The notes beneath the pieces were generated by a model. The model was not told where the DNA came from and made no database searches. It saw only the letters and a list, made by a program, of their open reading frames with translations. Of a stretch of DNA of 43,613 nt, positions 32,695-36,929 are shown in pieces; position 1 is the first letter of the stretch, and each line of letters starts with the position of its first letter. The stretch comes from Candidatus Nealsonbacteria bacterium (GTDB lineage Bacteria; Patescibacteriota; Minisyncoccia; Minisyncoccales; CSSED10-335), in the NCBI GenBank assembly GCA_019923605.1, contig JAHXGM010000003.1, forward strand, positions 1-43,613. Reading direction: 5' to 3'. The translations under genes were made by a program, and so were the position numbers.

Positions 32695-33000
32695 TTAGAA
32701 ATCTCTCTTTCCTCCGAAATCTCTTTCTCGGCTTCCTCCGTTGTCTCTTGGAGTCATTGGTTTTGCTTCACTAACGATAAGATTTCTTCCGTCAACTTCT
32801 TTTTCGTTGAACATTTCGATAGCTTTAGTAGCTTCTTGGTCTGTTGACATTTCAACGAAACCAAAACCTCTTGATCTTCCTGAAAACTTGTCTTTAATAA
32901 CATTAGCAGACTCTACATTACCTGCTTCAGAAAAAATGCTTTTAAGCTCTTCGTCTGTGGTAGAGTAAGATAGGTTGCCGATGTATAACTTCTTGGCCAT
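32695..33000 (-). CDS. RRM-type RNA-binding protein
   Basis: A 101-aa protein with one RRM domain. RNP2 is LYIGNL at 5-10 and RNP1 is RSRGFGFVEM near 42-51. A short Gly/Arg/Asp-rich tail follows (RDNGGSRERDFGGKRDF). Such small RRM proteins occur in cyanobacteria and CPR bacteria, often as cold-responsive RNA chaperones. It is unusual here in having a long structured leader and a textbook promoter, so it is probably strongly and post-transcriptionally controlled. Confidence 0.93.
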   Translation of the reverse strand: MAKKLYIGNLSYSTTDEELKSIFSEAGNVESANVIKDKFSGRSRGFGFVEMSTDQEATKAIEMFNEKEVDGRNLIVSEAKPMTPRDNGGSRERDFGGKRDF

Positions 33001-33121
33001 TGTTTTTATTTTGAATTTTAATAACGACCTTTCCCCTAACCCTCTCTTTGCTCTAGGTCGTAAAAACAGCCTTGAAAGCTTACGAGAATGGTTCTCTGGG
33101 CTAAGTTCAATAAATTGAACT
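33001..33121 (-). ncRNA. Structured 5' leader of the RRM gene (candidate cis-regulatory RNA)
   Basis: Between the predicted start of transcription (about 33120) and the ATG lie three hairpins on the minus strand. GTTCAA/TTGAAC with a 4-nt loop is at 33105-33120. GAGAA/TTCTC is around 33084-33096. ACGACCT (33055-33061) pairs with AGGTCGT (33024-33030) around a purine-rich loop with GAGAGGGTTAGGGG. The loop could base-pair elsewhere or bind the RRM protein itself. No known riboswitch class is recognised. Confidence 0.5.
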
Positions 33122-33127
33122 AACTTC

Positions 33128-33155
33128 AGTATATTCTAAAACAAATAATTGTCAA
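33128..33155 (-). promoter_or_regulatory. Consensus promoter of the RRM gene
   Basis: On the minus strand a perfect TTGACA (33150-33155), a 16-nt spacer and TATACT (33128-33133). It is the best sigma70-type promoter in the window and implies a leader of about 120 nt. Confidence 0.8.
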
Positions 33156-33156
33156 T

Positions 33157-33312
33157 TCAGAACAGCAAATGCAAAAACAATGACCTTATCCGGTCCTCTA
33201 GTTTGCCTCCAATATCAACCCGTTTAAAATAATATGCTCTTATTATGCTCAACTCTTCCTTGTCCCAAAGGTTAATCTCTTCTACTTCTATCAGTTTCAT
33301 TTTATTTTCCAT
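33157..33312 (-). CDS. Small hypothetical protein downstream of ychF
   Basis: A 51-aa frame starting MENKMKLIEVEEINLWDKEE and ending RSLFLHLLF. The composition is half acidic, then basic and hydrophobic, and no family is recognised. I start it at 33312 because a TTGACA at 33340-33345 and a TACAAA about 19 nt on stand directly before this ATG; the open frame extends upstream to 33348 across those elements. It ends 1 nt before the -35 of the RRM promoter. It may be real but could be chance coding. Confidence 0.35.
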   Translation of the reverse strand: MENKMKLIEVEEINLWDKEELSIIRAYYFKRVDIGGKLEDRIRSLFLHLLF

Positions 33313-33357
33313 AAATCTTTGTAATTTAAAAAAGGGGATTTGTGTCAACTAATAATT

Positions 33358-34425
33358 TTAAGCGTTGTGCTTGATTTCTATAACGTCTCCGTCACAAACT
33401 ATATAGTCTTTCCCCTCAATTCTTATCAGACCCTTCTTCTTAGCCTCTTGAAAGCCCCCTACCTCTATTAATTCTGTCCATTTTATAACTTCCGCTTTAA
33501 TGAAGTGTTTTTCAAATTCACTATGAATTTTTCCTCCAGCTTCAGGTGCTCTAGAGCCTTCTTTTATCTTCCATGCCCGAACTTCTTCTGGTCCTGCAGT
33601 AAAAAATGTTACAAGTCCTAAAAGTTCATATGACCTTCTAATTAATTCATCTATCTTAGATAACTCTGGAAGACCAAGTGCAATACGTTCATCATGTGTA
33701 AAACCCGCCGTTTCATGCTCCTCTAAGAGATCAATGACTAAAAAAAGAACTCCTTTTTTATTGAATTTTTCCACCAAATCAGGAGAAAGATCTGAGTCTT
33801 TTCCATTTAGAAGATATAGTCTTGGTTTTAAGGTTAAAAGTTGATAAGGTAAAAGAATTTTCTTTTCGTCTTTTTCAAACTCTCCTTGATAAAGAAATTT
33901 TCCTTCCTCTAGCATTTCCTTGGCTTTTTTAAGAACCGCTACTTCAACAATTGCTTCTTTCTTTTGAGCCCTAACTTCCTTTTCCAGGCCATGTATTCTT
34001 TTCTCAAGCGTCTCAATATCTTTTAGTCCAAGTTCTGTGTCTAAGAGATTCTGCTCTCTTAAAGGGTCAATTTCATTTCTAACGCTAATGATATTATCAT
34101 CCTTGAATAACCTTAAAACGTAAACTATTACATCTGTTTCTCTGATATTAGCTAAAAACTTATTGCCTAGTCCCTCGCCTTTACTAGCCCCTTCAACTAT
34201 TCCAGCAATATCTATAAATTCCACTGTAGAATAGGTTTTCTTTTTAGGCTCTATAACTTTGGCTATTTCCTCTAAACGATCATCGGGAACAGAAACAACC
34301 CCAACATTGGGGTCGATAGTACAAAATGGATAATTAGCACAATCCACTTGCTTCTTTGTAATGGTTTGAAATAAAGTTGACTTTCCGACATTCGGAAAGC
34401 CAACAATTCCGATAGAAAGAGACAT
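33358..34425 (-). CDS. ychF: Ribosome-binding ATPase YchF
   Basis: A 355-aa Obg-like P-loop protein that binds the ribosome and hydrolyses ATP. The G1 loop is GFPNVGKST at 8-16, G3 is DIAGIVEGASKGEGLGN, a coiled-coil insertion spans about 130-165, and the C-terminal TGS domain starts at about 270 (LVTFFTAGPEEVRAWKI). The G4 motif is not the NKxD of GTPases, as expected for YchF. It has its own promoter inside the end of the preceding gene. Confidence 0.95.
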   Translation of the reverse strand: MSLSIGIVGFPNVGKSTLFQTITKKQVDCANYPFCTIDPNVGVVSVPDDRLEEIAKVIEPKKKTYSTVEFIDIAGIVEGASKGEGLGNKFLANIRETDVIVYVLRLFKDDNIISVRNEIDPLREQNLLDTELGLKDIETLEKRIHGLEKEVRAQKKEAIVEVAVLKKAKEMLEEGKFLYQGEFEKDEKKILLPYQLLTLKPRLYLLNGKDSDLSPDLVEKFNKKGVLFLVIDLLEEHETAGFTHDERIALGLPELSKIDELIRRSYELLGLVTFFTAGPEEVRAWKIKEGSRAPEAGGKIHSEFEKHFIKAEVIKWTELIEVGGFQEAKKKGLIRIEGKDYIVCDGDVIEIKHNA

Positions 34426-34997: not shown

Positions 34998-36929
34998 TTA
35001 TTTAGCAAAAACATAATCTAACCTTTTCTGCTCTACATCTCCTCCCTTAACTTTGAAGTTAACCTTATCTCCTAGTGCATATTTCTTTTTCGTTCTTGAC
35101 CCAATAATAGCAAAGTTCTCTTTATCAAAGACATAAAAATCATTTTTCATCTCTTTTAACCTAACCATCCCCTCAGATCTAGTCTCAATATCTTGAATAT
35201 ATACTCCCCAATCAGTAACCCCGGAGATTATACCCTTTCTGGACTCTCCAATTCGTTGCAACATATACTGAGCTTGTTTGAAAGCAACCGATTCTCGCTC
35301 GGCAGATGATATTTCTATCTCTATCTGAGAAAGTGATTCGGCTGTTTCTTTGTAAAAAATTGTCTCACTCTTAGTGGAGGGCTTACCCTCTAACTTCTTC
35401 ATCAATGACCTATGCACAAGAAGGTCTGCATACCGTCTTATGGGAGAAGTAAAATGCGCGTAATTCTTGATAGCTAAAGCAAAATGTCCCTTGTTATCAA
35501 TAGAGTATATTGCCTTCGGCAATGATCTAACAAGAACTGATTTTGCTAAAAATTCTTCATCTGTATCTTTAATATCGGCTAATAAATCATTAAGATCCTT
35601 TGAAGTAGCGCTTGTTCCTTGAATTTTTAGGTTATGTCCAAGCTTTCGCAGAAACAAAAAGAGATTATCTAGTGCGTCCTTGTCAGGCTTATCATGTATT
35701 CTGTAAATACAGACGCGCCCCTTCGCCCTATCACTTAACACGTTGGCCACTTGATTATTAGCAAGAACCATTAATTCCTCAATCAAATTTTGAGTTGGAA
35801 TTCCCTTCTTTGTATAAATTTTTGATGGTAGTCCCAAACTATCAAACTCTATCTTTATTTCTTCTTGACCAATTTCTAGCGAACCACTCTCCGTTCTTTT
35901 CTTATGAAGCTTTTGAGTCAACTGAAGTAACTCAATCAATTCATTGAAATAATCTCCTTTTCTTTGATCTATTGATTCTTGAGCCTCTTCATAATTGAAT
36001 CTTTTATCTGAATTTATGACGGTTTTACCAATCCAAGTATCTTTTATTTCGCCTTCAGGAGTTATTTTAACTATTACTGAAAAAGTTAGTTTGTCTTCAT
36101 TTGGATTCAAGCTACAAACATCATTGGAAAGAACCTCGGGAAGCATAGGTATGGTTCGATCAGGAAGATAAATAGAAAATCCACGCTTTCTTGCTTCTTC
36201 GTCAATGGGGCTTTTTTCTTTTACCCAATGAGAAACGTCAGCAATATGTATTCCAACTTCATAAAGATCATCTGATAGTTTTTTGTACGATATAGCGTCG
36301 TCGAAGTCTTTTGCATCAACTGGGTCAATGGTAATAGTCAACGCGTCTCGAGTATCCCTTCTTTTTCGAAACCCTCTTTCCATTTCGGTAGGATGCATTC
36401 TTTTAATTTCAGCTGCTTCTTTGTCAACTTCTTCAGAAAAAGATATTTCAAAACCTTTTTCTATTACAATCGACTCCATCTCAACATCATTATCTCCCTT
36501 TTCTCCAATTATCTTAATAATTTCACCGACTGGATTTTTCTTTGAGTCTTTCCATTCTATAATTCTAACTAAACATTTTATATTATCTTTAACTCCCTTT
36601 GGAGTATTAGGTATAAAAATATCTACATACATCTTCGGGTCATCGGCGATAAGGAAAGAGAATTTCTCTTTTTTCTTTCTTTCAATTGTTCCCACAAACT
36701 TTTCCTTCTTCCTCTTTGTGATAGCTATTACTTCACCCTTTTGTCTTTCACCGGTAACTGCAGGTGATAAAACAATCTCCACTCGATCGCCATTTAATGC
36801 AGTATTTAAAAATTGAAAAGGTATAAAAATATCTTCTTCTAAAAAATCCGTAGCAACATAACCGGATCCAAGTGATGTTATAGTTATGACTCCTTCTATA
36901 ATTGTTCCACTGTCTATTTCTTTTTTCAT
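34998..36929 (-). CDS. rnr: Ribonuclease R (RNB-family 3'-5' exoribonuclease)
   Basis: A 643-aa processive exonuclease that digests structured RNA and broken rRNA. An N-terminal pair of cold-shock/OB domains (about 5-140) precedes the RNB domain. The metal-binding aspartates keep RNase R spacing: Asp202, Asp208, Asp210 and Asp211 (DPVDAKDFDDA). SPIRRYADLLVHR is the family signature near 500. The C-terminal S1 domain (about 560-640) is followed by no basic tail, so it is shorter than E. coli RNase R (813 aa). It starts 1 nt after the upstream kinase gene. Confidence 0.95.
   Translation of the reverse strand: MKKEIDSGTIIEGVITITSLGSGYVATDFLEEDIFIPFQFLNTALNGDRVEIVLSPAVTGERQKGEVIAITKRKKEKFVGTIERKKKEKFSFLIADDPKMYVDIFIPNTPKGVKDNIKCLVRIIEWKDSKKNPVGEIIKIIGEKGDNDVEMESIVIEKGFEISFSEEVDKEAAEIKRMHPTEMERGFRKRRDTRDALTITIDPVDAKDFDDAISYKKLSDDLYEVGIHIADVSHWVKEKSPIDEEARKRGFSIYLPDRTIPMLPEVLSNDVCSLNPNEDKLTFSVIVKITPEGEIKDTWIGKTVINSDKRFNYEEAQESIDQRKGDYFNELIELLQLTQKLHKKRTESGSLEIGQEEIKIEFDSLGLPSKIYTKKGIPTQNLIEELMVLANNQVANVLSDRAKGRVCIYRIHDKPDKDALDNLFLFLRKLGHNLKIQGTSATSKDLNDLLADIKDTDEEFLAKSVLVRSLPKAIYSIDNKGHFALAIKNYAHFTSPIRRYADLLVHRSLMKKLEGKPSTKSETIFYKETAESLSQIEIEISSAERESVAFKQAQYMLQRIGESRKGIISGVTDWGVYIQDIETRSEGMVRLKEMKNDFYVFDKENFAIIGSRTKKKYALGDKVNFKVKGGDVEQKRLDYVFAK

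Follow-up and report, generated by a model that had tools for sequence, protein, structure and literature searches.

Ribosomal-protein leaders are examples of autogenous control by RNA-binding proteins, and the Chlorobi-RRM RNA is placed upstream of genes for proteins with an RNA recognition motif (RRM). To our knowledge, few experiments have addressed how Patescibacteria regulate their genes. In the available part of its description the Chlorobi-RRM RNA (RF01697) is presented as a candidate structured RNA of Chlorobi that was named for the RRM (PMC2864571). For cyanobacterial RRM genes the accessible text reports conserved cold-response boxes in the 5' untranslated region (UTR) and a requirement for Rbp1 in the cold (PMC9333190). 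For Bacteroides thetaiotaomicron RbpB the portion of the study available describes a CLIP-seq site on the protein's own rbpB mRNA, "implying the potential for autoregulation" (PMC11697453).

The leader considered here precedes an RRM gene in a 43,613-nt stretch of a Candidatus Nealsonbacteria genome (contig JAHXGM010000003.1), which is referred to as the window. The reading that we favor as a whole, with a probability of about 0.55, is that of a structured leader specific to the RRM gene, probably used for autogenous translational control, of which the window copy is a derivative. Like the Chlorobi-RRM RNA, the Patescibacteria element is an RRM-linked candidate structured RNA, and in the window it likewise lies upstream of an RRM gene, but the two come from different phyla. 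The Chlorobi-RRM model reached its cut-off in none of 20 genomes (the window's own genome and those of relatives) and gave no match in the own genome at E-values up to 1; the 14 listed matches under the threshold all lie elsewhere than at an RRM leader, and such matches were also obtained in 3 of 14 control genomes. As far as the accessible part of the source shows, cyanobacterial rbp 5' UTRs resemble the Patescibacteria leaders in having conserved elements on single-RRM genes and differ in that their boxes are described for the cold response, the two being set side by side here by description and not by sequence (PMC9333190). RbpB, in the part of its study available, and ribosomal-protein leaders share with the Patescibacteria element a gene-specific leader or own-mRNA site of an RNA-binding protein; binding of RbpB to its own message rests on CLIP-seq, whereas the Patescibacteria element is known from comparative sequence alone (PMC11697453).

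Searches with Rfam 15 at the cut-off identified no family in the window and, tRNAs apart, nothing in the loci of 18 relatives. With an E-value limit instead, all matches in window positions 32950-33200 stayed below the cut-off, and 20 further loci searched at E-values up to 0.5 yielded one tRNA plus three matches below the cut-off. No description of the Patescibacteria RRM-leader element was found in the open-access literature, a body of text that leaves out most subscription journals. With this element, structured leaders on bacterial RRM genes would be known from a second lineage.

The window RRM gene (33000..32695, minus strand, 101 codons) encodes a protein of 101 amino acids with a single RNA recognition motif (PF00076/RRM_1, E-value 4e-23), and no second RRM match was found in the 559-kb genome. 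The top-scoring solved relatives of the protein are poly(A)-binding protein, nucleolin, and the chloroplast ribosomal protein cS22. The features of its upstream region to which the text refers are as follows:

33155-33150, minus strand: -35 hexamer TTGACA, from a promoter scan; a promoter with 9-11 of 12 consensus matches is present in 5/5 members of the window's family
33133-33128, minus strand: -10 hexamer TATACT, 16 nt from the -35 hexamer; a transcription start at about 33121 is predicted from it
33001..33121, minus strand: 5' leader of about 121 nt, as predicted from the distance to the promoter
33121-33104, minus strand: hairpin 1, AGUUCAA-UUUA-UUGAACU, in the minimum-energy and centroid folds and absent from the family consensus structure
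33093-33084, minus strand: 5' strand of a long helix, AACC-A-UUCUC, in the minimum-energy fold; its UUCUC is like the conserved 5' strand of stem P2 in relatives
33046-33038, minus strand: 3' strand of the long helix, GAGAGGGUU, in the minimum-energy fold
33054-33031, minus strand: purine-rich stretch AGAGCAAAGAGAGGGUUAGGGGAA, a candidate RRM target judged from the sequence
33029-33025, minus strand: GGUCG core, 29 nt before the ATG
33061-33055, minus strand: ACGACCU, 5' arm of the third hairpin (segment c) by complementarity, competing for AGGUCGU
33030-33024, minus strand: AGGUCGU, 3' arm of the third hairpin (segment d) by complementarity
33029-33023, minus strand: GGUCGUU, which the minimum-energy fold pairs with AAUGGCC at the start codon
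33068-33061, minus strand: UGUUUUUA, possible segment b, by eye complementary to 33008-33001
33008-33001, minus strand: UAAAAACA, possible segment e, directly 5' of the ATG and by eye complementary to 33068-33061

The long leader of the window RRM gene is real. The initial annotation had placed a consensus promoter about 120 nt upstream of the ATG, and this was borne out: the promoter matches the consensus at 11 of 12 positions and is the strongest of seven promoter-like sites within 2.5 kb (8.5 expected by chance), its -10 box ends 127 nt before the ATG, which puts the leader within the range of roughly 100-200 nt, the predicted start lies at about 33121, and the promoter is conserved in all five family members. 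The same annotation had spoken of a genome of near-leaderless messages, which could not be established, since the promoter-like sites that stand 7-38 nt before the start of ten window genes are weak (only 9-10 of 12), a quality that occurs at chance density where this was checked.

Upstream of the promoter, a small open frame on the minus strand (33157-33348; 63 codons from a TTG, 51 from the ATG at 33312) fills the gap between a YchF gene and the RRM promoter, with its stop abutting the -35 box; a Pfam search with this frame gave no match. The YchF-type GTPase gene (33358-34425, minus) is on the same strand as the RRM gene, and two terminator-like hairpins are predicted within its coding sequence (34404-34376 and 34315-34296, minus). 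Further upstream lies a gene for an RNB-domain exoribonuclease with cold-shock domains (34998-36929, minus).

Across Patescibacteria a widespread feature of RRM leaders is the GGUCG core. Altogether 227 RRM leaders were collected, of which 216 remained without repeats, 182 were from Patescibacteria (including seven placed there by judgement: L043, L056, L061, L064, L069, L070, and L072) and 179 were long enough. Scored as GGTCG between -130 and -15 relative to the ATG of the RRM gene, the core was present in 131/179 leaders, as compared to 11.3 expected from shuffles, to 485 of 7318 other 115-nt segments of the same loci (6.6%), and to 4 of 34 RRM genes from other organisms. The window, with GGUCG 29 nt before its ATG, belongs to the leaders with the core. 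Among the 48 Patescibacteria leaders without GGTCG, 13 have AGTCG. Extra RRM copies (L250-L257) have GGTCG upstream in seven of eight cases, the exception being L253; this count refers to eight inspected copies, and some other genomes hold further extra copies.

In the relatives the core is part of an element located at the transcript 5' end that consists of a stem P1 (GUAAG:CUUAC, with the compensated form GUAGG:CCUAC), an internal loop with GGUCG, and a stem P2 (UUCUC:GAGA). Its two strands are a segment a at the inferred transcript start, GUAAG-(0-4 nt)-UUCUC, and a segment d near the ATG, GAGA-GGUCG-N-CUUAC, which leaves GGUCG in the 3' strand of the internal loop. In 50 of 75 leaders segment a follows 4-16 nt after the end of a promoter with at least 9 of 12 matches (mean in shuffles 2.9, maximum 6), and the median distance from the -10 box to the ATG in those 50 leaders is 122.5 nt.

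Pairing between a and d (the distal stem) was stronger within leaders than between them, with a score of 13.63 for 126 differing leaders as compared to 12.56 when permuted (sd 0.21; 0/2000). In 40 of 63 leaders the 5-mer before UUCUC is fully complementary, counting G-U, to the one that follows GGUCGN; neither side was picked for pairing, and 63 of the 126 leaders were left out for want of a usable UUCUC. In 5000 permutation runs the mean was 25.4 and the maximum 33. The count of 40 alone is no proof of compensation, since among 35 variant leaders, G-U again counted, the a arm could pair with CUUAC 18 times and with its own partner 17 times. The case for compensation in P1 rests instead on type counts and on an alignment of 52 leaders. 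With words for a, c, and d chosen from lists of observed types, the 126 leaders comprised 41 with GUAAG/CUUAC, 13 with GUAGG/CCUAC, three crossed, and 69 not typed on both sides, and the corresponding counts for c against d were 25, 5, and 5 crossed, four of the crossed cases being a G-U pair. In the alignment of 52 leaders, which were selected on segment a from 67 rows, 78.0% of P1 cells were paired as compared to 72.2% after shuffling (0/500), and the covariation score was 0.280 as compared to 0.180 (0/500). Of the 15 rows left out, 14 had neither a GUAAG-like nor a UCGU-like word at segment a; the other was leader L055, which has GUAGG with CUUAC. Column pair 18:186 of this alignment is A-U in 36 leaders, G-C in 13, and another combination in three. 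Slid controls fell below P1 in both paired cells and covariation, one of them having seven double-change pairs vs. six; further P1 pair types in the 52 leaders were not exceptional (75/500 shuffles). On the best RRM tree, which is weak, 8-9 independent P1 changes were counted, and one on supported branches. P2 (UUCUC:GAGA) also covaries, with 11.25 as compared to 10.07 (0/5000, n = 91), in a test that placed segment a by how well it complements d and made no use of P2 in doing so.

Two further pairings were supported, the first of which competes for the 3' arm of the distal stem. The proximal stem between c and d scored 13.59 as compared to 11.45 permuted (126 leaders, sd 0.25; 0/2000), and the pairing of interior segment b with the start-proximal segment e scored 16.58 as compared to 14.33 (n = 124, sd 0.22; 0/2000), whereas a control pairing of the interior with codons was reached in 101 of 2000 permutations. 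When the interior of each leader was shuffled, the values for c:d, a:d, and b:e were each reached in 0/100; the codon control likewise exceeded every one of the 100 shuffles, though less clearly (15.91 vs. 15.14), and part of the pairing excess is therefore due to composition. In single-sequence folds arm d is paired with c in 45 of 126 leaders and with a in 24 of 126.

Several other arrangements were considered and discarded. As parts of a switch, b:c pairing was weak (111/5000) and a:b pairing was absent (4216/5000). Pairing of GGUCG with the start codon had a probability above 0.5 in only 1/126 leaders, which argues against it as a general mechanism, and core-to-start pairing is hence not a conserved feature. 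Masking of Shine-Dalgarno sites was discarded as such sites are only slightly raised in number (25/179 leaders, 17.8 in shuffles, sd 3.8), and control by an intrinsic terminator as no terminator-like site is listed in the window leader.

The association of the element with RRM genes was examined using R1, a covariance model of the c:d hairpin subtype. For this, subsets of 20 (the seed of R1) and 14 sequences took the place of a MAFFT alignment of 37 hairpins; the subsets were chosen for complementarity, so that pair counts within them are not independent evidence. At E-values up to 0.01 the model gave 23 matches in 21 of 383 genomes of the class, 13 of them seed sequences and 10 from outside the seed. 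All 23 precede an RRM gene, 22 of them by no more than about 100 nt and one, in genome G293, by 272 nt. R1 matched none of the 160 genomes that lack an RRM match at E-value 1e-20. R1 covers one subtype, with 21 genomes matched as compared to 223 of 383 with an RRM match at E-value 1e-20. Over 379 genomes of the phylum it gave four matches in three genomes, two of which were already in the class sample; in the third (G481, from another class) the match is also upstream of an RRM gene. With lax thresholds in the fetched loci, weak matches appeared off the leader or on the opposite strand, at E-values from 0.4. A pattern combining a, P2, the core, and P1 gave nine matches in the 383 genomes, eight directly upstream of an RRM gene and the ninth at a contig end, and its reversed control gave none. 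The leader lineage thus appears to be attached to the single-RRM gene in Patescibacteria, no other gene having been found at the thresholds used.

In the G293 locus (L186, positions 692-729), the element 272 nt upstream of the RRM gene is separated from it by sequence with an inverted repeat seen by eye, possibly an insertion. A direct DNA similarity search of 100 genomes with the window leader gave, besides the leader itself, one 23-nt A/T-rich match (query positions 141-163), which was taken as chance. A candidate second copy of the core in the window's own genome, a single mismatched site within an open frame that by eye resembles initiation factor 2, was likewise dismissed as chance because two sites were obtained with the reversed control pattern as well.

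The predicted fold of the 122-nt window leader (-28.0 kcal/mol) is more stable than all 200 of 200 dinucleotide shuffles (z -2.57), an excess that is gone when 61 nt of coding sequence are added (z -1.09, 29/200 shuffles as good). The three hairpins of the initial annotation were recovered in part: the first (33121-33104) is clear, and the third can be drawn, with a purine-rich loop of 24 nt, but is absent from the minimum-energy fold, where it is replaced by the long helix and the pairing of GGUCGUU over the start codon. In that fold UUCUC (33088-33084) pairs with GAGAG, not immediately beside GGUCG. For P1 the best partner in the window leader is only a 5-bp stretch with one G-U pair and the lowest score listed. 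The best interior-to-start pairing of the window leader scores 17; as 14.5% of cross-pairings are equal or higher, its b:e pairing is unremarkable on its own.

Within the window's own family, i.e., the window and four relatives, the best promoter scores are 11, 10, 11, 11, and 9 of 12 and the -10 boxes end 127, 126, 86, 96, and 117 nt before the ATG, respectively. Each of the five leaders has GGTCG at 29-30 nt from the ATG and a purine run ahead of the core, and GG..AAAGGTCG is invariant among them. No hairpin covariation was detected in the five leaders (RNAalifold consensus energy -2.5 kcal/mol; the covariation term, at +1.08, is unfavourable). The compensatory changes by which the initial annotation was to be checked in orthologous leaders were hence seen for P1 and P2 across Patescibacteria and not in this five-member family. 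A UUCUC:GGGGA helix is possible in the family, each of its five pairs forming in three to five of the five leaders. R1 gave no match to the window leader with filters off and E-values up to 10, nor to the leaders of L003 and L004 at E-values up to 10, and weak matches at the leaders of L002 (15.1 bits, E-value 1.9) and L005 (13.2 bits, E-value 5.5). The window leader is treated here as a derivative of the Patescibacteria leader rather than as a proven case of the structured element, on the grounds that it keeps the promoter, the length, the core, the purine run, and the UUCUC that pairs with GAGAG and lacks P1 and a match to R1. The window copy would then be eroded, with P1 remodelled or lost, and its predicted fold would occlude the start codon by another route.

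The finding of the conserved structure only before the RRM gene in the genomes searched suggests that the RRM protein probably controls its own production. One state of the leader would be the a:d pairing (P1 and P2), for which covariation in relatives argues. In the other, segment c, a second GUAAG-like word, would take arm d into a local hairpin with GGUC in a purine-rich loop, and upstream segment b would pair with e, the bases just before the ATG, as the cross-species complementarity suggests. The a:d pairing would be mutually exclusive with c:d plus b:e, and the second arrangement may bury the start region. The RRM protein could bind GGUC and its purine neighbourhood, shift the balance between the two, and so set its own level, the outcome most simply being negative feedback on translation. 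The autoregulation by binding of a purine-rich loop that the initial annotation had put forward is thereby supported in part, being favored by the RRM-only matches and by the purine-GGUCG stretch in all five family leaders, on comparative grounds. A more far-reaching version, in which segments a to e would make up a phylum-wide five-part RNA switch specific to RRM genes and a new class in Patescibacteria, with GGUCG read by the RRM protein to toggle between the two arrangements and the window family rewired so that the core covers the start codon, is in our view rather doubtful. A covarying leader before one gene for an RNA-binding protein would be a concrete and testable regulatory RNA in Patescibacteria, and it names both a likely protein partner (the RRM protein) and a candidate binding site (GGUCG).

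Other explanations were weighed against autogenous control by the RRM protein. For the window family it may be that the structure has decayed and that the purine-GGUCG stretch serves as a single-stranded contact site for a protein or the ribosome, with no switch. The shared purine-GGUCG core, ATG distance, and promoter of the five leaders would fit such a decay, as would the missing R1 match of the window leader; the weak R1 matches at L002 (15.1 bits) and L005 (13.2 bits) and the UUCUC:GGGGA pairs, each still formed in three to five of five leaders, speak against it, and we consider it unlikely. An incidental fold, in a leader that is long and untranslated but has no regulatory role, is given very little credence; the window fold with coding sequence is indeed no better than shuffles (z -1.09), but conservation and covariation in the relatives are hard to reconcile with this explanation.

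Regulation of another kind would also be conceivable. The initial annotation had offered a temperature switch as in cold-shock genes. Through such a switch the RRM protein would be made in the cold, with or without feedback, and the accessible text on cyanobacterial RRM genes, with their 5' UTR cold-response boxes and an Rbp1 needed in the cold, lends this some plausibility (PMC9333190). The alternative gained no support from the window itself, where the predicted fold stays nearly the same from 10 to 45 °C, with a mean openness around the start of 0.55-0.64; no Rfam family reached the cut-off in the window or, tRNAs apart, at the loci of the 18 relatives, and the element was not found before another gene in the genome searches, so that a temperature switch is regarded as quite unlikely. 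Just as improbable is an element that senses another ligand (a metabolite, an ion, or a different protein) and thereby controls RRM expression: a conserved internal loop in a covarying helix is typical of ligand-binding leaders too, but a general ligand would be expected to act on other genes as well, and the R1 matches at E-values up to 0.01 are all on RRM genes.

Some leaders depart from the common layout. The leaders of L013, L022, L023, L261, and L262 form a subclass with a TCGTGCT-like word upstream and AGTAGGTCG before the ATG, in which the 5' partner departs from the GUAAG rule. Outside Patescibacteria, a CGGGC...GGTCGCCCG hairpin precedes the RRM gene in leader L103 (a Spirochaetaceae record), as a chance occurrence or a distant parallel. 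Leaders L239 and L048 have two copies of GGTCG each, those of L239 being separated by a GC-rich hairpin-like insert.
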